Positions 2,633-53,463 of a stretch of DNA of 64,000 nt are shown here, one piece after another. The stretch covers positions 62,001-126,000 of the forward strand of contig SCMV01000002.1 of the NCBI GenBank assembly GCA_005502875.1. The letters run 5' to 3'. The position numbers were made by a program, and so were the translations under genes. The notes below the pieces were generated by a model. It did not search any database and was not told where the DNA came from. It saw only the letters and a list, made by a program, of their open reading frames with translations. Numbering within the stretch: position 1 is the first letter of the stretch; each line of letters begins with the position of its first letter. Source of the DNA: Comamonadaceae bacterium 2PF (GTDB lineage: Bacteria > Pseudomonadota > Gammaproteobacteria > Burkholderiales > Burkholderiaceae_C).

Positions 2633-3919
<1,287 letters not shown>

Positions 3920-3989
3920 CGAGTTTTGCGACCGGGCGATCCTCACGAGGGGTCGCTCGGGTCTGCATTCGATCACAGGAGTCCACACC

Positions 3990-4319
3990 ATGTCCCTGGC
4001 CGACGAACTCGACAAACTGGCTTCGCTGCACGAGCGAGGCGTGATCACCGCTGAAGAATTTCAGCGGCTGAAGTCCCGCGTGGTGGACGGATCTTCTTCT
4101 GTCGAAGGCGCGTCAGGGGTGGTCGATTCGACCATGCGCCGCTCGCTCGACGATCGCTGGATCGGTGGCGTTTGCGCAGGCCTGGCCCGCATGATGGGTG
4201 TGGAAACCTGGATCGTTCGACTCGCCGTCACCCTTTTGACCTTTTTCTGGGGCACCGGGCTCGTCATCTACGTCCTGTTGTGGGTGTTCGTCCCACCTGA
4301 GGGCGCTGAGCCAGCCTGA
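3990..4319 (+). CDS. SHOCT/PspC-domain small membrane protein
   Basis: A 109-residue protein with two recognisable parts. Residues 1-35 (LASLHERGVITAEEFQRLKSR) fit the SHOCT short oligomerisation motif. Residues 46-105 (DDRWIGGVCAGLARMMGVET, then a hydrophobic helix ending in WVFVPPEG) fit a PspC domain with one transmembrane segment. PspC proteins act in envelope-stress signalling in enterobacteria, but no psp genes are visible here, so a stress role is inference only. An AGGAG ribosome binding site precedes the ATG. It lies in the same direction between sucB (70 nt upstream) and lpdA (63 nt downstream), so it is probably part of the suc transcript, an unusual partner for TCA-cycle enzymes. 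Confidence 0.85.
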   Translation: MSLADELDKLASLHERGVITAEEFQRLKSRVVDGSSSVEGASGVVDSTMRRSLDDRWIGGVCAGLARMMGVETWIVRLAVTLLTFFWGTGLVIYVLLWVFVPPEGAEPA

Positions 4320-44849: not shown

Positions 44850-46130
44850 TCAGGCGTCGCGACCGCAAACCCGGTTGCGGCCTTCGGATTTGGCCTGCTG
44901 CAGCGCCTGCTCGACCCGCTGCATCAACGTGTCGACCAGCAGGTCAGGGTGGGCATGGCAAGTCACCACGCCCACGCTGACGGTCATGTGCCGAGCGGTG
45001 GTCGAGCTCTCATGCCTGATCTGCAGTGACTCCACGGCCTGCCGCAATCGCTCGGCGACGCCGTTGGCAAAGGATGCGTCCGTGTTCGGCAGCACCACCA
45101 GGAACTCTTCGCCCCCCAGTCGCGCCACCACATCAGCGGGCCTGCGCAGCCCGTCCTGCAGCACCCGAGCGACCTTTTGCAGGCACTCATCGCCCGCCGT
45201 GTGTCCATAGCGGTCGTTGAATTTCTTGAAGTGGTCGATGTCGATGAGCAGCAGGCTCAAGGCACTGCGGTCTCGCCAGGCGCGCTCCCAGACCAGGTTC
45301 AGGTGCTGCTGGATGTGCTTTTGATTGTGCAGGCCGGTGAGGGTGTCGATGCGAGAAATGTCTTTGAGCCGGGCATGCGCCTGCGTCAGGTCGCGCACCA
45401 GGCTGCGTTCGCGAAGCGTGCGCAGGAAACGCCGACGCTCATCGCGCTCCATGAAGTAGTTGGCGCACAGGGTGAACAGGGCCACCGAGATCACCATGGA
45501 CGAGATGGGCCAAAGCAGGCGGGGCGGAAACGTCTCTTGCGACATCACGCTGGCCACGAAGATGCCCAACATGATGGAGGTGAAGGTCAGCGCATACCAA
45601 AAGCGCATCCGCGAAACGACGTTGCCATACGTGATGACCACCATGTAGCCCACCGGGAAGAAGTGGACCATGCGGCTCTCGGAAAGCGGCATGACGATGG
45701 CGATGCTCACCGCCGCCCCCACGCCACCGAGCAACATCAACACATCCACCAGGGCCAGGGGCATCAGGCGATGGAAAGGGTGAAAGCCTCGCCAGAACAA
45801 GAACAACGAGAGCAGCGCAATCGGCGTGAAGACCAGCAGACGCAACTGCGCAGACAGCCAAAGCATGTCCGGGATCATCAACTGATCGGCCAGCAAATAC
45901 CCGTTGTAGATCAGCAGGGAAATGAGGCTGCTGATGAGGAAGTGGCGTTCGCGAGCGGGCAGGGCGTCGCGCTGAAAGGCCTCTTCCAGGTCGGTTGGGA
46001 AGGACATCAGCGGGAAGCCGTTTTCCAGCAAATCCTGGATGCGCACCATGGTGGCGTGGTGCGAGCCCTGCACCGGACGATCCAGGTCGGTGGGAGGCGT
46101 GACCGGGCGGGGCGAGAAGATGGCGCTCAT
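44850..46130 (-). CDS. Membrane-bound diguanylate cyclase (GGDEF, canonical)
   Basis: A 426-residue protein with about six N-terminal membrane helices (roughly 65-230), a short coiled linker (RSLVRDLTQAHARLKD) and a C-terminal GGDEF domain. The domain keeps the metal ligand D297 (LIDIDHFKKFND), the GGEEF signature at 339-343 and an RxxD product-inhibition site (RPAD, 330-333). It should therefore make c-di-GMP and be feedback-inhibited. The membrane part is a sensor of unknown signal. ATG 46130 follows the stop of the upstream, paralogous GGDEF gene by one nucleotide. The in-frame extension to 46199 is inside that gene. Confidence 0.92.
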   Translation of the reverse strand: MSAIFSPRPVTPPTDLDRPVQGSHHATMVRIQDLLENGFPLMSFPTDLEEAFQRDALPARERHFLISSLISLLIYNGYLLADQLMIPDMLWLSAQLRLLVFTPIALLSLFLFWRGFHPFHRLMPLALVDVLMLLGGVGAAVSIAIVMPLSESRMVHFFPVGYMVVITYGNVVSRMRFWYALTFTSIMLGIFVASVMSQETFPPRLLWPISSMVISVALFTLCANYFMERDERRRFLRTLRERSLVRDLTQAHARLKDISRIDTLTGLHNQKHIQQHLNLVWERAWRDRSALSLLLIDIDHFKKFNDRYGHTAGDECLQKVARVLQDGLRRPADVVARLGGEEFLVVLPNTDASFANGVAERLRQAVESLQIRHESSTTARHMTVSVGVVTCHAHPDLLVDTLMQRVEQALQQAKSEGRNRVCGRDA

Positions 46131-46131
46131 G

Positions 46132-47370
46132 TCAGTCCTGTGTGCCAAATGCGATGACGCGATTGCGCCCGCGCTGGCGAGCCAGGTGCAAGGCCTCATC
46201 GGCCACGGCGATCAACTGCGTCGGGCTGGCATGCGGCGAGTCAGGGCGCATGCACGAGACCCCCAGGCTGACGGTGATGAGGTCGCGCTCATCTGGGCCA
46301 TGGGGTTGGCGCAGGTTTTCCACCGCCTTGCGGATGCGCTCGGCCGCGCCCACCGCGGTCTGCAAGGTGGTTCCCACCATCAGCACCGCAAACTCTTCGC
46401 CGGCAAAGCGTGCCAGCAGGTCGTCCGGACGCTGAAAATCGGCCCGGACCACGCCCGCGATGGCACGCAGGCATTCATCGGCTGCGCCCTGTCCGCGACT
46501 GGCCTGGCAAGCTTTGAAGTGGTCCACCGCCAGCAGGATCAGTGACACCTCTTGCCGTGCCTGGCCAGCTTTGCGCCAGCGGTGCTCGAGCTCGGCATCG
46601 AAATGCCGGCGGCTGGCCAACTCGGTCAGCTGGTCATTGCGAGAGGCCTCTTCGAGGCTGGCGTTGGCCTGCAAGAGCTCGTGCTGCAGGAGCCGTTCAC
46701 GCATCAGCAACAGCCAGTTCTGGCGCACGTCGCGTTCTTGCATGTAAGCGCCGTAGAGCGTGAAGACAGCGAGCGAGAGCACCGTCAGCGCAGCTGGCGC
46801 CATGATGGCGAAGGGCGCCTGTGGCAGGCGCGACCAGCCGTACAGGAACATGGCCATGACGAAAAAATCAAGGCACATGGCAGGCCTCAGGCGCATGCGT
46901 GCCACGGTGTTGCAGTACACCAGCACCACGCTCACGCTGATGAGATACGGCCCGGCCATCGGGTCGGTGCTGCCAACGCAGAGGTGGACGTTGATGATCG
47001 TTGAGACCATGCCAGCCAACACCAAGGAGCCTTCTCGCAAGGCCGGTGATTGGAGCTTTGTGAGCACGATCAGGCCCAGCAGGATGCATGGCGTGAACCA
47101 CATCAGCCGCAGCCGCAAGGCGTCATCGAAGCGGTCGGGGATCATCATCCAGTCCGACAGCAACAGCCAATTGAACAGCACGCTGACCAAGGCGCCAGCG
47201 CCCAGCAAGGTCTGCATGCGCTCTCGCGCTGTGTCGGTCTGAAAGCGAGACTCGAGGGGCGGCGGGAACCTCAGCATCCGCATGCCGCCGTGCAGCAAGG
47301 CGTCAATGGCCCGTGCATCGGCTGCGGTGAGCCCATTTCGCGCATCGGCTTGCGGCATGGGCTCGGACAT
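46132..47370 (-). CDS. Membrane GGDEF protein with degenerate catalytic site
   Basis: A 412-residue paralogue of the downstream cyclase. It has the same FPPPLESRF...SDWMMIPDRF membrane-sensor layout with about six helices, linker and GGDEF domain. Aligned without gaps to its neighbour, the first metal Asp is A281 (LLAVDHFKACQA), the guanine-contacting Asn is Q289, the GH of the next loop is GQ, and the signature is AGEEF (323-327). The RxxD I-site (RPDD, 314-317) is intact. Cyclase activity is doubtful; a c-di-GMP receptor or heterodimer partner is inferred. ATG 47370 is preferred to an upstream GTG at 47427. Confidence 0.88.
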   Translation of the reverse strand: MSEPMPQADARNGLTAADARAIDALLHGGMRMLRFPPPLESRFQTDTARERMQTLLGAGALVSVLFNWLLLSDWMMIPDRFDDALRLRLMWFTPCILLGLIVLTKLQSPALREGSLVLAGMVSTIINVHLCVGSTDPMAGPYLISVSVVLVYCNTVARMRLRPAMCLDFFVMAMFLYGWSRLPQAPFAIMAPAALTVLSLAVFTLYGAYMQERDVRQNWLLLMRERLLQHELLQANASLEEASRNDQLTELASRRHFDAELEHRWRKAGQARQEVSLILLAVDHFKACQASRGQGAADECLRAIAGVVRADFQRPDDLLARFAGEEFAVLMVGTTLQTAVGAAERIRKAVENLRQPHGPDERDLITVSLGVSCMRPDSPHASPTQLIAVADEALHLARQRGRNRVIAFGTQD

Positions 47371-47712
47371 GAGGGTGGTCACGGACGACACGTCGGTGAA
47401 ATTCCTGCTGCTGACGTGAGGCGTCACGGCCTGTGGGCTTGACGCGCGGGGTTCAATGCCCTGTGGAGGGGCAATCGATCGTATCGGAAAGGTGTCTTGG
47501 GCCGCGAGACGGCGGACACTGGTTTTCCCTTGCGGGGCGCCGATTGTGCCTCTGGGTCAGGCCTGTGGCCGTTCATGCATTCGGCGCACGCCAACATTGG
47601 TTGACATAATATACATCGTGGCAAGTAACATGGGCGACAAAAGACCCGCAGGACAGCCGCCTACCAGGCTCCTAGAGGACCCACTGCAGGCCCTCCGAAC
47701 AACACCGCCCCG
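47371..47712. other. 342-bp gene-free stretch upstream of the GGDEF pair
   Basis: It lies between the start of the GGDEF pair and the 3' end of the decarboxylase-like gene, both on the minus strand, so it should hold the promoter of the former and the terminator of the latter. I see no T-tailed hairpin. The only marked feature is an AT-rich patch at 47600-47612 (TTGACATAATATA), with a possible plus-strand TTGACA but a poor -10 (TAACAT, 19-nt spacing). No RNA gene is recognised. Confidence 0.4.
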
Positions 47713-48711
47713 TCAGCGGCGGACGGCAGCCGATTTCACCCGTTCAGGCGCATACAGCGCGCCCTGGAACTGCGGCACGTACTCGTACTTCACCATCCGT
47801 CCCAGCTTCAGCGACTTGATGAAGCCCGACAGGCTGCCATCTTGCAAAGTCAGCTTGACCGAGTCCTGGTCCATGCTGCTGGCGTGGCTGAGTTGCCGCG
47901 AAACCGAGTGGCCTTGGATCAGGTTGCCTTGCTGGTCCAGGTTCGTGAAGCGGTTGGTGACCATCTCTTCCTTGTTCGATGGATCATCGAGCTTGCGGGC
48001 CTCGATCACCACGTCGGGCTTGCCCGTCTGAGCATCGAAGACCTCGAACGTGACCGATTTTTCACCGTCCTTCAGGTTGATCGGGATCAGCCACTTCGGC
48101 AAGTTGTAGCCGACGACGCCCCTCACGCGGGCCAGCTCGGTGTTGACCGGCAGCTTGAGCACGTAGCCCGACAGGTCCTTGTCCATCGATTGGGCCAACA
48201 GGCTGAACGGCCCCCAGTTCGAGCCCCCCAGCTTGCTGGTGACGATGGAGATGGCCACCTCGTTGTAGCTGTCGTTGTCGCAATGCTCGTAGCTGTAGGC
48301 CGTGATGGCGACCAGCCCGCGGCCCAGCCAGATCTGCAGCGGCTGGACCTCGGCCAGCACCTTGGGCGGAATCAGTTCGCGCAGGCGCTCGATGTCAGCG
48401 GTGTACACGGCCGTCACCCGGCTGTTCTTGTAATAGAAGTTCGGCGAGTAAGACTCGAAGCCAATGTCCAGCTTGGTTTTCTTGAGGGTTTTGAACCAGC
48501 TCAGGTCGAGGTTCGGGGCCTCGGCTTCGATGACGGAGAGTGGCGGGTTCGAGCGGAACCGGTCGTACAGGCCGCCGCGCACCACCGGCACCTTGTGCCC
48601 GGCGATGTCGATCACGGGGCTGCCATCGGCTGCGGCGCCTTGGGCCCAGACCGGGCCGACCAGAGAACTCAGCAGCAACGCACCGGCTGCGACAACGCTT
48701 CGAAAATGCAT
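47713..48711 (-). CDS. Secreted acetoacetate-decarboxylase-like protein
   Basis: A 332-residue protein with a clear signal peptide (FRSVVAAGALLLSSLVGPVWA, cleavage near residue 23). The mature part looks like the acetoacetate decarboxylase superfamily: YTADIERLRELIPPKVLAEV, YNEVAISIVTSK, and VRGVVGYNLPKWLIPINL, whose K206 aligns with the Schiff-base lysine region of that fold. An exported member is unusual, and decarboxylase activity is only inferred. GAGGT ribosome binding site. It follows the MerR gene on the same strand but has its own MerR-type promoter at 48754-48784, which points to induction by that regulator. Confidence 0.72.
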   Translation of the reverse strand: MHFRSVVAAGALLLSSLVGPVWAQGAAADGSPVIDIAGHKVPVVRGGLYDRFRSNPPLSVIEAEAPNLDLSWFKTLKKTKLDIGFESYSPNFYYKNSRVTAVYTADIERLRELIPPKVLAEVQPLQIWLGRGLVAITAYSYEHCDNDSYNEVAISIVTSKLGGSNWGPFSLLAQSMDKDLSGYVLKLPVNTELARVRGVVGYNLPKWLIPINLKDGEKSVTFEVFDAQTGKPDVVIEARKLDDPSNKEEMVTNRFTNLDQQGNLIQGHSVSRQLSHASSMDQDSVKLTLQDGSLSGFIKSLKLGRMVKYEYVPQFQGALYAPERVKSAAVRR

Positions 48712-48753: not shown

Positions 48754-48784
48754 AATCTAACTTTCAAGCCGACTTCAAGGTCAA
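48754..48784 (-). promoter_or_regulatory. MerR-type promoter/operator of the decarboxylase-like gene
   Basis: On the minus strand: -35 TTGACC (48779-48784), a 19-nt spacer with TTGAAG-N4-CTTGAA, and -10 TAGATT (48754-48759), 43 nt before the ATG. The 19-nt spacing is the mark of promoters activated by MerR-family proteins through DNA distortion. The -35 box overlaps the stop codon of the MerR gene. The same palindrome in the same register occurs at 49259-49289 and 49313-49343. Confidence 0.75.
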
Positions 48785-49218
48785 GCACCTTTTCGAGGTT
48801 TCGCCTTCTTGCTCACCGGGATCCCGAAACTGTCCAGCACCCGCACGGCATTGTCTTCACAGGCCATGCCTTCGGGCTTGGCGTCGATCATCTGCATGAG
48901 CGCGCGCAGCTGCGCCTTGCTTTGCGCCAGGCGCACTTCCATGGCTTCGATGTCGGTGATCTTTTTCGTCAGGGCCGCGATCAGTGCGTCGTGCCGCCAG
49001 GTGCTGAAGTCCTCCGGTATCACCTGCTTGATCTCGTCAAGGGTGAAGCCCGTTTGCTGAGCGCTGGAGATGATGTTCAGCACCGCCACGGCTTCCAGCG
49101 GGTACTCACGGTAGCCGTTGGCCTGTCGACTCACGGCATTGAGCAGCCCTTTCGACTCGTAAAACCGGATCGTCGATGCGGTGAGCCCGGTGCGCTGGGC
49201 CAGCTCTCCGATCTTCAT
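48781..49218 (-). CDS. MerR-family transcriptional regulator
   Basis: A 145-residue regulator with an N-terminal winged HTH of MerR type (MKIGELAQRTGLTASTIRFY, ESKGLL, NGYREYP) and a C-terminal dimerisation coiled coil (TDIEAMEVRLAQSKAQLRAL). Only one Cys is present (C127 region, GMACEDNAV), so it lacks the cysteine sets of metal- or iron-sulfur-sensing members; the inducer is probably an organic molecule or redox cue. ATG 49218 has a GAGGTG ribosome binding site. It sits between two apparent target genes, and its own promoter carries the same operator, so autoregulation is expected. Confidence 0.9.
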   Translation of the reverse strand: MKIGELAQRTGLTASTIRFYESKGLLNAVSRQANGYREYPLEAVAVLNIISSAQQTGFTLDEIKQVIPEDFSTWRHDALIAALTKKITDIEAMEVRLAQSKAQLRALMQMIDAKPEGMACEDNAVRVLDSFGIPVSKKAKPRKGA

Positions 49219-49258
49219 GGGACACCTCGCTTGCAATCGACACATGGACACGGCATCG

Positions 49259-49289
49259 AATCTAACCTTGAAGCGCGCTTGAATGTCAA
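49259..49289 (-). promoter_or_regulatory. MerR-type promoter/operator of the regulator gene
   Basis: On the minus strand: -35 TTGACA (49284-49289), a 19-nt spacer with TTCAAG-N4-CTTCAA (central palindrome AAGCGCGCTT), and -10 TAGATT (49259-49264), 40 nt before the MerR ATG. The -10 is identical to that of the decarboxylase-like gene. Confidence 0.75.
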
Positions 49290-49312
49290 ATGCAAAGCGT
49301 TGCCGATGGCAC

Positions 49313-49343
49313 TTGACATTCAAGTTGACTTCAAGCTTACGGT
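49313..49343 (+). promoter_or_regulatory. MerR-type promoter/operator of the OYE gene
   Basis: On the plus strand: -35 TTGACA (49313-49318), a 19-nt spacer with TTCAAG-N4-CTTCAA, and a weak -10 TACGGT (49338-49343), 27 nt before the OYE ATG. The weak -10 with 19-nt spacing suggests strong dependence on the activator. Confidence 0.7.
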
Positions 49344-49370: not shown

Positions 49371-50603
<1,233 letters not shown>

Positions 50604-50680: not shown

Positions 50681-51724
50681 ATGCCCCCGATCACCCCCAC
50701 CACAAGGCTGGCCAGCCTCCTCTGCGCCCTGACGCTCCTGAGCGCCCTGGCCTGGCAGCCGGCCCAAGCCGGCAAGGTGCTCGACGGCATCCGCCAACGT
50801 GGCCAGCTGGTTTGTGGCGTCAGCAATGGCGTGGCCGGCTTCTCGGCGCCGGACGCCAAAGGGCGCTGGCAAGGGCTCGACGTGGACGTGTGCAGGGCGG
50901 TGGCCGCTGCGGTGCTGGGCAGCGGCGAGAAAGTGCGCTTCACACCGCTGAACTCGACACAGCGCTTCGCCTCGCTGCAATCGGGGCAGGTGGACATGCT
51001 GTCTCGCAACACCTCGTGGACGCTCACGCGCGACGCCTCGCTGGGCCTGCACTTCACCGCCATCACCTACTTCGATGGCCAGGGCTTCCTGGTGCCGTCC
51101 AAGCTCAAGCTGACCAGCGCCAGGCAGCTCAAGGGGGCACAGGTGTGCGTGCAGGCTGGCACCACCACCGAGAAGAACCTGGCCGATTTCTCGCGCGCGA
51201 ACGGCCTGGGCATCAAGCCTGTGGTGTTCGACACCTACGAGGCGGGCTTCAAGGCCTTGTTCTCGGGTCGTTGTCAGGCCTACACCGCCGATGCGTCTGC
51301 GCTGTCGAGCATCCGAAACAAGGAAGCACCCAAGCCCCAGGACTACACCGTGCTGCCAGACCTGATCTCCAAGGAGCCCCTGGGGCCAGCCGTCAAGCGC
51401 GGTGACGACGAGTGGTTCGCCATCGTCAAGTGGACGATCTACGCGCTTCAAGAGGCCGAAGAGCTGGGTGTGACGCAGGCCAAAGCGGCCACGCTGGCCG
51501 CCAGCACCGATCCGGCCATCCAGCGCCTGCTCGGTGGTGGCGAGGACATGGGCAAGCTGCTGGGACTGGACAAAACCTGGGCCTTGCGCGCCATCCAGGC
51601 CGTTGGCCACTACGGTGAAATCTTCGAGCGCAACGTGGGCAAGAACTCGCCCTTGAACCTGCCGCGCGGTGCCAACCGGCCGTGGAGCCAGGGCGGCTTG
51701 ATGTACGCCCCGCCCCTGCGCTGA
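50681..51724 (+). CDS. Amino-acid ABC transporter substrate-binding protein (AapJ/BztA type)
   Basis: A 347-residue periplasmic binding protein. The signal peptide LASLLCALTLLSALAWQPAQA is followed by GKVLDGIRQRGQLVCGVSNG, then DVDVCRAVAAAVLG, LNSTQRFASLQSGQVDMLSRNTSW and CVQAGTTTEKNLADF. These are typical of the AapJ/BztA family for general polar L-amino acids (Glu, Asp, Gln, Asn). It is the first gene of a three-gene transporter set: two permeases follow at 12 nt and by overlap. No ATPase gene is adjacent. Confidence 0.92.
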   Translation: MPPITPTTRLASLLCALTLLSALAWQPAQAGKVLDGIRQRGQLVCGVSNGVAGFSAPDAKGRWQGLDVDVCRAVAAAVLGSGEKVRFTPLNSTQRFASLQSGQVDMLSRNTSWTLTRDASLGLHFTAITYFDGQGFLVPSKLKLTSARQLKGAQVCVQAGTTTEKNLADFSRANGLGIKPVVFDTYEAGFKALFSGRCQAYTADASALSSIRNKEAPKPQDYTVLPDLISKEPLGPAVKRGDDEWFAIVKWTIYALQEAEELGVTQAKAATLAASTDPAIQRLLGGGEDMGKLLGLDKTWALRAIQAVGHYGEIFERNVGKNSPLNLPRGANRPWSQGGLMYAPPLR

Positions 51725-51736
51725 ACCGCGGAGCCC

Positions 51737-52603
51737 GTGGCCTTGTTCGATTGGGGATTCCTTCACCAGCCCGCTGGGTTCGACATCGGTGAAACAGGCC
51801 TGATGGCTTTCGACGCCATGCAGCCCATGTGGTGGGCCTTCGTCGTGGGCCTGGGCAACACCTTGCGCGTGGCCCTGCCCTCGCTGCTGGTGGCCACCTT
51901 GTTCGGCCTGCTGCTGGCCTTGCTGCGCACCTCGGGCCTGCCTGGCTGGCGTCAGGCGGCACAAGGCGTGATCGGCCTGATCCGCCATGTGCCGCTGCTG
52001 CTGCAGCTGCTGATCTGGTACTTCCTGCTCATCGAGTGGTTGCCTGATTCGACCCAGGCCTTGCCGCTGTGGGGCGGGCTCTGGCTGAGCAAAGGGGGGC
52101 TGGCCTTCCCATGGCCCGAGCCCGCGGGTGGCGCCTGGCAACTGTCATGGCCCGCGCAGGAGACCTTCAACGTCAGCGGCGGCGCATCCGTCACGCCGGA
52201 GTACTTGGCCGTGGCGCTGGCCCTGAGCACCTACACAGCGGCCTTCCTGGCCGAGGTCTTTCGCAGTGGCATCGAGGCGGTGCCGCGCGGCCTGCTCGAG
52301 GCGGCCGACACGCTCGGCGCCACCCGCTGGCAACAAATCCGGCTGGTGCTGATCCCTCAAGCCCTGCGCACCGTCGTGCCACCCACCACCAACCAGTACC
52401 TGAACCTCATCAAGAACTCGTCGCTGGCCGTGGCCGTGGGCTACCCCGACCTGGTGTCGGTCACCACCACCGCGCTGAATCAGAGCGGCCGCGTGCTCGA
52501 GTGCATCGGGGTGATGATGGCGGTGTACCTGACGCTGTCGCTGCTCACGGCGTTGGCCATGAACGCCTTCAACCGCAGCCACGCGCTGAAAGGGGTGGCA
52601 TGA
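51737..52603 (+). CDS. Amino-acid ABC transporter permease (AapQ type)
   Basis: A 288-residue inner-membrane permease of the polar amino-acid uptake family. The start is GTG 51737, 12 nt after the binding-protein gene. About five helices (FVVGLGNTLRVALPSLLVAT; GVIGLIRHVPLLLQLLIWYF) precede the ATPase-contact EAA loop EAADTLGATRWQQIRLVLIP. AapQ of Rhizobium is about 400 residues; this one is shorter but complete at both ends. Its last 4 bp overlap the next permease (ATGA). Confidence 0.9.
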   Translation: MALFDWGFLHQPAGFDIGETGLMAFDAMQPMWWAFVVGLGNTLRVALPSLLVATLFGLLLALLRTSGLPGWRQAAQGVIGLIRHVPLLLQLLIWYFLLIEWLPDSTQALPLWGGLWLSKGGLAFPWPEPAGGAWQLSWPAQETFNVSGGASVTPEYLAVALALSTYTAAFLAEVFRSGIEAVPRGLLEAADTLGATRWQQIRLVLIPQALRTVVPPTTNQYLNLIKNSSLAVAVGYPDLVSVTTTALNQSGRVLECIGVMMAVYLTLSLLTALAMNAFNRSHALKGVA

Positions 52604-53463
52604 GCAGCCGCGCGATGCCGTCCACGAAGACGCTGACGGTGCGAGGCGCACAGGTGGGCGGCCTGCTGTTGCTCGCCTGGCTGACCTGGGTGCTGCTGCG
52701 CTGGGGCGTGATCGATGCGGTGTTCCGGCCCGATGCGCAGGCTTGCCAGGCCCTGGCGCGCGAAGCCGCCTGCTGGGGCGTGGTCGTGCAGAAGGCCCGA
52801 TGGCTGCTGCTGGGATCACCCGACCAATGGGGCGGCCTGCCGCTGACGCTGCTGCTGTTTTTCGGCAGCTGGTGCCTGTCGTGGCCGCTGGGCGTGGGCC
52901 TGGCTTTGGCCCGACGGTCTCGTCACGCGTGGCTGAGTTGGCCGGCGACGGCGTTCATCGAAGCGGTGCGCGGTGTGCCGCTGGTGGGTCTGCTGTTCGC
53001 GGCGGCTTTCCTGCTGCCACTGTGGTGGCCCCATGGGGAAGCGCCCTCGCTGGGCTGGCGAGCCGGGATGGCGCTGACGCTGTTCTCATCGGCATACCTG
53101 GCTGAAATCGTGCGAGGAGGGTTGCAAGCCGTGCCGCAGGAGCAGACGGAAGCGGCGGCCACGCTGGGGCTGGGCTGGTGGGGCACGCAGCGACGCATCG
53201 TGCTGCCTCAAGCCTTGCGCACGGTGCTGCCGGCGCTGACGGGCCATGCGATCGGCCTGCTCAAGGACACCTCGCTGGTGATGGTCATCGGTCTGCACGA
53301 GCTGACCGGTGGGCTCTCACTCAGCCTGGGAGGCGACCCGGACTGGCGGCCCTTCTACTTCGAGGCCTACCTGTTCGTGGGCGCGGTGTACGCCCTGCTC
53401 TGCCTGATGCTGTCCCGACTGGGGCTGCACCTGGAGCAACGCTGGCAGCGGGCCCAGGGCTGA
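52600..53463 (+). CDS. Amino-acid ABC transporter permease (AapM type)
   Basis: A 287-residue permease partner. After an N-terminal helix (GGLLLLAWLTWVLLRWGVID) and a loop come FFGSWCLSWPLGVGLALARR and IEAVRGVPLVGLLFAAAFLLP. The EAA loop is TEAAATLGLGWWGTQRRIVLP, and GLLKDTSLVMVIGLHELTGG is also conserved. ATG 52600 overlaps the upstream stop by 4 bp, which indicates translational coupling. The frame is open earlier (52069) but only inside the upstream permease gene. The usual fourth gene, the AapP ATPase, is missing here; the next gene is convergent. Confidence 0.9.
   Translation: MSSRAMPSTKTLTVRGAQVGGLLLLAWLTWVLLRWGVIDAVFRPDAQACQALAREAACWGVVVQKARWLLLGSPDQWGGLPLTLLLFFGSWCLSWPLGVGLALARRSRHAWLSWPATAFIEAVRGVPLVGLLFAAAFLLPLWWPHGEAPSLGWRAGMALTLFSSAYLAEIVRGGLQAVPQEQTEAAATLGLGWWGTQRRIVLPQALRTVLPALTGHAIGLLKDTSLVMVIGLHELTGGLSLSLGGDPDWRPFYFEAYLFVGAVYALLCLMLSRLGLHLEQRWQRAQG

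Follow-up and report, generated by a model that had tools for sequence, protein, structure and literature searches.

A MerR-family regulator with a single invariant C-terminal cysteine and its predicted 19-bp-spacer promoters before OYE, ADC-like and other genes

Results

A MerR gene between an ADC-like gene and an OYE gene

The locus studied here lies in a stretch of 64,000 nucleotides from Comamonadaceae bacterium 2PF (contig SCMV01000002.1, positions 62,001 to 126,000), hereafter referred to as the window. It comprises an acetoacetate-decarboxylase-like (ADC-like) gene, a gene for a MerR-family regulator and an Old Yellow Enzyme (OYE) gene, together with three promoters of one architecture, each with an operator in its spacer (Table 1). 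On the far side of the ADC-like gene, two adjoining and similar ORFs on the minus strand (44850-46199 and 46132-47427) were recognized by eye as membrane-anchored and diguanylate-cyclase-like, with GGEEF and AGEEF motifs; they are perhaps the result of a tandem duplication. From 77 bp past the OYE gene, amino-acid ABC transporter genes follow on the plus strand (50681-53463), with a binding protein of Pfam family SBP_bac_3 and two permease-like ORFs assigned by eye.

Table 1. Genes, promoters and operators of the MerR locus. Coordinates are those of the window; scores are those of the weight matrix described in the text.
Feature	Coordinates	Strand	Description
ADC-like gene	47713..48711	-	332 aa; N-terminal signal-like stretch by eye
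MerR-family regulator gene	48781..49218	-	145 aa; ATG at 49218; single cysteine C120
OYE gene	49371..50603	+	410 aa; FMN oxidoreductase, divergent from MerR; Pfam Oxidored_FMN, E 4.3e-57
ADC-like gene promoter	48754..48784	-	TTGACC-TTGAAGTCGGCTTGAAAGT-TAGATT; 19-nt spacer; matrix score 40.5
MerR gene promoter	49259..49289	-	TTGACA-TTCAAGCGCGCTTCAAGGT-TAGATT; 19-nt spacer; matrix score 37.8; rare among relatives
OYE gene promoter	49313..49343	+	TTGACA-TTCAAGTTGACTTCAAGCT-TACGGT; 19-nt spacer; matrix score 48.3; most conserved of the three
Operator 1	48763..48778		imperfect inverted repeat
Operator 2	49268..49283		imperfect inverted repeat
Operator 3	49319..49334		imperfect inverted repeat; centre 51 bp from centre of operator 2

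Read from its ATG, the MerR ORF has the 145 residues that a preliminary description of this DNA had given it. The Pfam models MerR_1, MerR and MerR-DNA-bind all score above their gathering scores, which identifies a winged-helix domain and a dimer helix. The structure model (mean pLDDT 87) matched CadR, Tn501 MerR, CueR, PbrR and other MerR-family structures in a fold search. It has helices at residues 76-112 and 120-130, with the chain ending soon after the dimer helix and with C120 at the beginning of the last short helix, after a loop and behind the dimer helix. This cysteine was invariant in 95/95 sequences and the sole cysteine in 59 of them (95 of 96 sequences were kept, L015 being dropped as a match without the N-terminus; the window copy is included, and one contig of genome G010 enters twice). 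It is surrounded by the C-terminal signature P-x4-C-x2-N-A-x-R, and position 54 was an invariant glutamine in 39 sequences.

Comparison with NCBIfam left all 14 hits of the window protein under their cut-offs, the best being CueR with 75.2 bits versus 147.4; this comparison with bit cut-offs applies to the window protein, the other 38 members having been judged by E-values. Relatives were also present in 20 plasmid records, of which those annotated at the match read 'MerR family' regulator, and one carries an overlapping acetoacetate decarboxylase annotation at the match. A MerR tree of 42 rows, with 18 of its 39 inner branches unresolved, clustered the OYE-linked rows without uniting them in one clade; rows L161-L166 and L184 are labelled 'none' in it only because the target clustering did not cover them. 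The best reading is that the regulator is a CueR-like protein of an unnamed MerR subfamily. With one invariant cysteine, C120, it misses the defining features of CueR, MerR, SoxR and NmlR/AdhR.

The ADC-like protein matched Pfam ADC with E 5.6e-4 and 19.9 bits, under the gathering score of 29.8, and had no sequence match in the PDB. Its structure model (mean pLDDT 68) matched the solved ADCs 3c8w and 3bgt with probability 1.00, these being the only matches below E 0.001. Residue K206, in the motif GYNLPKW, was invariant in 10/10 ADC-like sequences and is a candidate for the equivalent of the catalytic lysine of acetoacetate decarboxylase; the model is poor at this residue. Judged by its sequence, the ADC-like protein is probably exported. 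The best solved relative of the OYE protein is 7fev (E 3.2e-76).

Three promoters with an inverted repeat in a 19-nt spacer

The preliminary description had placed TTGACN, a 19-nt spacer and TANNNT before the ADC-like, MerR and OYE genes, with a repeat in one register at all three sites, two on the minus and one on the plus strand. The sequence positions confirm both points, and the centre of the repeat lies 8 nt from the -35 box at all three promoters. The pattern TTSAAGN4CTTSAA has 3 exact matches in the window; dinucleotide shuffles gave a mean of 0.01 matches, and 0/100 shuffles reached 3. The same description had spoken of a 16-bp palindrome. Three such sites are indeed present, but the repeat is imperfect at each of them because the same letter stands at S in both arms, whereby the S pair never matches (of the 11 dyad pairs in each 22-bp site, 8, 9 and 7 match). 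Within 49268-49334, the distance between the centres of the MerR and OYE operators is near five helical turns, so that two dimers could share one face of the DNA.

Conservation of operator and promoter geometry in relatives

To compare sites between relatives we used 88 loci, 80 of them from named species genomes (80 of the 331 relatives found) and 8 from the genus. These loci are not independent, as many are from Pseudomonas with near-identical sites, and L021 and L156 (G010) are one contig counted twice (a 3000-base piece is identical). A scorer for any dyad upstream of MerR returned mostly noise, and a weight matrix trained on 26 sites was used in its place. A site with a matrix score of at least 30 was present in 85/88 loci, a figure that is circular for the training loci; Markov-simulated loci (682,156 bases, one strand) gave 1 hit at a score of at least 8 and 0 at 10 or above. 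L025, L027 and L154 had no site scoring at least 30 in the stretch examined. Among promoters with TTGACN, the relaxed repeat and TANNNT, the spacer was 19 bp in 96/96, with 16 to 29 allowed. The exact TTSAAG/CTTSAA 31-mer was found in 10/88 loci only, for which reason the strict motif was rejected as a definition of the regulon; TTNAAS-N4-STTNAA was found in 80/88.

Each of the 62 OYE orthologues counted next to a MerR relative had a site in its own orientation within 150 bp (62/62), and the median distance from the -10 box to the OYE start was 28 bp. Only matches with 300 bits or more that start no later than residue 40 entered this count, which excludes L054 (start at residue 174) and L154 (residue 105). 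For ADC relatives, the corresponding figure was 11/14, with a minimum of 140 bits and the same limit on the start; L032 (residue 164) and the weaker L035 and L090 are excluded. The remaining three, L063, L076 and L088, have sites 76, 32 and 33 bp before a start and were scored as misses because the counting rule had extrapolated their start over the signal stretch. At L032 (4547-5079), the ADC match covers nothing before residue 164, no own site scores at least 30 and the adjoining OYE site is intact; the ADC target and its promoter seem to have been lost together.

Among the 87 relatives counted, only 3 direct such a promoter at MerR itself, and 67 have an operator, whichever way it points, in the 200 bp upstream of MerR. 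L010, L011 and L158, whose MerR proteins are 75-81% identical to that of the window, have the ADC and OYE sites in common with it and not the MerR promoter: their best own-orientation match upstream of MerR scored 12.9 to 16.2, compared with 37.8 in the window. A comparable arrangement of three sites, at ADC, MerR and an epimerase, occurs in genome G002.

To see which other genes carry the promoter, ORFs downstream of sites scoring at least 24 were clustered, and Pfam names were taken from seven representatives. The main clusters were OYE (60 entries), ADC (19, of which 16 from sites of at least 30), epimerase (14) and MerR itself (8), followed by DJ-1/PfpI (7, of which 3 from sites of at least 30), alpha/beta-hydrolase (6) and saccharopine-dehydrogenase-like proteins (3, two from one contig). 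Smaller clusters, in which some ORFs are wrong-frame reads, include a [2Fe-2S] subunit and a secreted Lipoprotein_15 protein. No metal transporter or chaperone was among the seven representatives scanned. Several of the target families include reductive or detoxifying enzymes. In B. subtilis, AdhR is reportedly a MerR regulator of yraA, and YraA is a DJ-1/PfpI protein.

Co-occurrence of the promoter with the regulator

A genome-wide scan had been proposed as a check on the regulon. With the 31-mer promoter pattern at up to 3 mismatches, it returned only the three window sites from the whole assembly (4,184,385 bases), all inside the ADC-like/MerR/OYE cluster, and none before the amino-acid ABC transporter genes. 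The relaxed pattern, written after inspection of the loci of relatives, genus genomes included, again returned only these three from the whole 4.18 Mb assembly, and a reversed control pattern had 0 matches in the same 4,184,385 bases. The bare 16-mer has one further copy in the genome, located where an integrase-like ORF of contig C38 ends; it comes without a promoter of this type and was not accepted as a fourth site.

MerR (E 1e-20) was found in 9/61 relatives, all 9 among the 37 genus genomes in that set, and a search of five further genus genomes found no MerR. In the genus panel of 42 genomes, with the promoter counted at up to 2 mismatches, it occurred in 10/42, namely in 9/9 genomes with MerR versus 1/33 without (Fisher p 2e-8); this panel is no independent test, since the relaxed pattern was drawn from loci including genus genomes. 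The one exception, G030, has the promoter before OYE and no MerR; its contig runs on for 38 bp after the site and breaks off where a divergent MerR gene would be expected.

A panel of 300 genomes from across the order had no part in shaping the relaxed pattern, except for the window's own genome. MerR was searched in it at E 1e-28 and the promoter at up to 1 mismatch, both scans using one draw of 300 as far as the genome labels show. The promoter occurred in 7/7 genomes with MerR versus 4/293 without (p 8e-12), or in 6/6 versus 4/293 when the window genome was left out (p 2e-10). The reversed control pattern gave a single match, in genome G043.

The four genomes with promoter and without MerR at E 1e-28 were G043, G175, G235 and G165. 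In G043, a much more distant MerR (42% identity) and an OYE gene with the same type of promoter are neighbours (L184, 1982-2386 and 2392-3690), and the operator may thus serve a wider group than that described here. In G175 (L183, 2345-3622) the operator precedes an OYE gene with a seemingly disrupted reading frame, and the 5 kb read contain no MerR match; the site is possibly the trace of a lost regulator. The sites of G235 and G165 are weak (matrix scores 23.6 and 20.6), have none of the searched families nearby and are probably due to chance. The locus of another genome, G023 (L154, about 3061-3998), is a decayed copy, with a MerR match from residue 41, OYE pieces from residue 105 and a degenerate site scoring 25.4. 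OYE orthologues of G016, G018 and G063 (60-61% identity) have neither a MerR in the genome nor a site, and 23 OYE loci from genomes without MerR (L120-L142, mostly paralogues of 42-47%) reached matrix scores of at most 6.1, compared with 35.5-51.5 for the training sites.

Co-conservation of operator and regulator in relatives, which the preliminary description had set as a check, is supported by 9/9 genus genomes and 7/7 order genomes. It had also named as counter-evidence a palindrome missing beside orthologous genes of close relatives, and this comparison did not refute the regulon.

Discussion

We consider it likely that regulator, operator and targets form a real module, a judgement that covers the module and not its inducer. 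From MerR-family biology and the geometry of the promoters, a MerR dimer would bind a 22-bp imperfect inverted repeat, with the core TTNAAS-N4-STTNAA, within an overlong 19-bp spacer. In the idle state it would keep the promoter in an inactive phase, and on induction it would distort the spacer so that sigma-70 RNA polymerase could use the -35 and -10 boxes. MerR would thereby turn on OYE, the ADC-like protein, which is probably exported, and in the window genome its own gene too. A chance or repeat-derived likeness of the three sites, without regulatory role, is extremely improbable: three similar sequences do lie inside 600 bp, but the shuffles expect 0.01, the promoter co-occurs with the regulator in other genera and the spacer is fixed.

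The preliminary description had this regulator controlling itself and both flanking genes. Control of the flanking genes is consistent with the co-occurrence of MerR and promoter and with the sites that OYE and ADC-like genes carry in relatives. Autoregulation by an identical promoter, such as the one before MerR in the window, would be local, as it recurs so rarely among the relatives and is missing in the three closest. A regulon of two fixed targets did not hold up, since relatives place the same promoter before other genes.

What the regulator might sense is approached through its relatives. Among named models and structures, CueR, MerR and CadR come closest, and the likeness extends from the predicted fold to the 19-20 bp spacer and an operator centre 8 bp from -35, the MerR and HMRTR groups having a 22-bp site with this centre in the excerpted text of PMC5045206. 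The regulator could then be a CueR/CadR-kind metal sensor with shifted ligands, whose enzymes would answer metal-caused damage. We regard this as improbable, given that almost all members of the metal-sensing subfamily have two conserved cysteines in the C-terminal loop (PMC9909328, in part), whereas one is conserved here and 59 of the 95 sequences have no other. The NCBIfam hits of the window protein, all under their cut-offs, the operator core and the absence of any metal gene among the target representatives scanned likewise set it apart. In the same excerpts of PMC5045206, one recognition-helix position pairs with an operator base, Glu with T in MerR/CadR, Lys with C in CueR and Asp with G in gammaproteobacterial HMRTR. 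The window regulator has Ser15, with A, where we map position 14 of the recognition helix (CueR has K there, and MerR/CadR have E), a pair absent from the table as excerpted; the HMRTR group is compared here by its description in that source only.

Sensing by a thiol has precedents within the MerR family. The aldehyde regulators NmlR/AdhR respond to reactive carbonyls, AdhR with a single conserved cysteine (PMC3499171 and PMC9909328, both in part). This cysteine is C54 in AdhR (PMC3499171, in part), whereas the window protein has glutamine at 54 and its cysteine at 120. The window protein also scores 44 bits versus the NmlR cut-off of 175. SoxR shares the family and a redox theme, and its operator looks similar in kind. 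However, SoxR carries four cysteines for a [2Fe-2S] cluster (PMC9909328, in part), compared with one in the window protein. The score for SoxR was 49 bits versus a cut-off of 117. NemR is a TetR-family repressor, hence of another regulator family and mechanism than MerR. The NemR-NemA pair resembles the present one in having an OYE gene beside its own regulator and a response to electrophiles (PMC3739934, in part).

The missing metal-binding cysteine pair and the reductive or detoxifying target families point, we infer, to a reactive electrophile or carbonyl acting on C120 as the inducer, an assignment that we make tentatively and hold at a little under even chances. The MerR protein would then probably be a thiol sensor of electrophiles. 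The invariant C120 may instead be structural, the match between the targets and an electrophile response is a loose one, and the ADC-like protein, which seems to be exported, may not meet cytoplasmic electrophiles. Alternatively, a specific small molecule (an enone, a ketone or an aromatic metabolite) could be bound non-covalently, with the cluster as a small catabolic or biosynthetic unit. The targets do include likely carbonyl-active enzymes, and BmrR-type MerR relatives bind drugs (PMC8113463 and PMC7722741, in part). But the chain ends soon after the dimer helix, with BmrR chains reaching ~275 residues, and targets that vary between relatives fit a general stress better than one substrate; we find such a ligand rather unlikely.

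Returning to the electrophile reading, we offer as a provisional proposal, somewhat short of an even call, that an unnamed and widespread MerR subfamily of beta-, gamma- and alphaproteobacteria uses a C-terminal cysteine (P-x4-C-x2-N-A-x-R) as electrophile sensor. Its promoter with a 19-bp spacer would act as a plug-in cassette that can stand before one detoxification gene or another (OYE, ADC-like, DJ-1/PfpI, epimerase and alpha/beta-hydrolase).

A search of the open-access literature, subscription papers being outside its scope, showed neither a MerR-OYE regulon nor this operator among the matches listed; the matches naming both MerR and OYE did so, in the excerpts returned, in unrelated places only. 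Activation by MerR on a long spacer is known already, and the single-cysteine group, with its operator and its exchangeable targets, is a variation on it. OYEs are widely used as biocatalysts, and the regulator and its 19-bp promoter could be employed together as a biosensor component. An unnamed MerR group gains a predicted operator, a target set and a candidate sensing residue. Should the single C-terminal cysteine prove to be the sensor, it would add a further thiol/redox design beside the SoxR cluster and Cys54 of AdhR, and would account for the induction of many Pseudomonas OYE genes.
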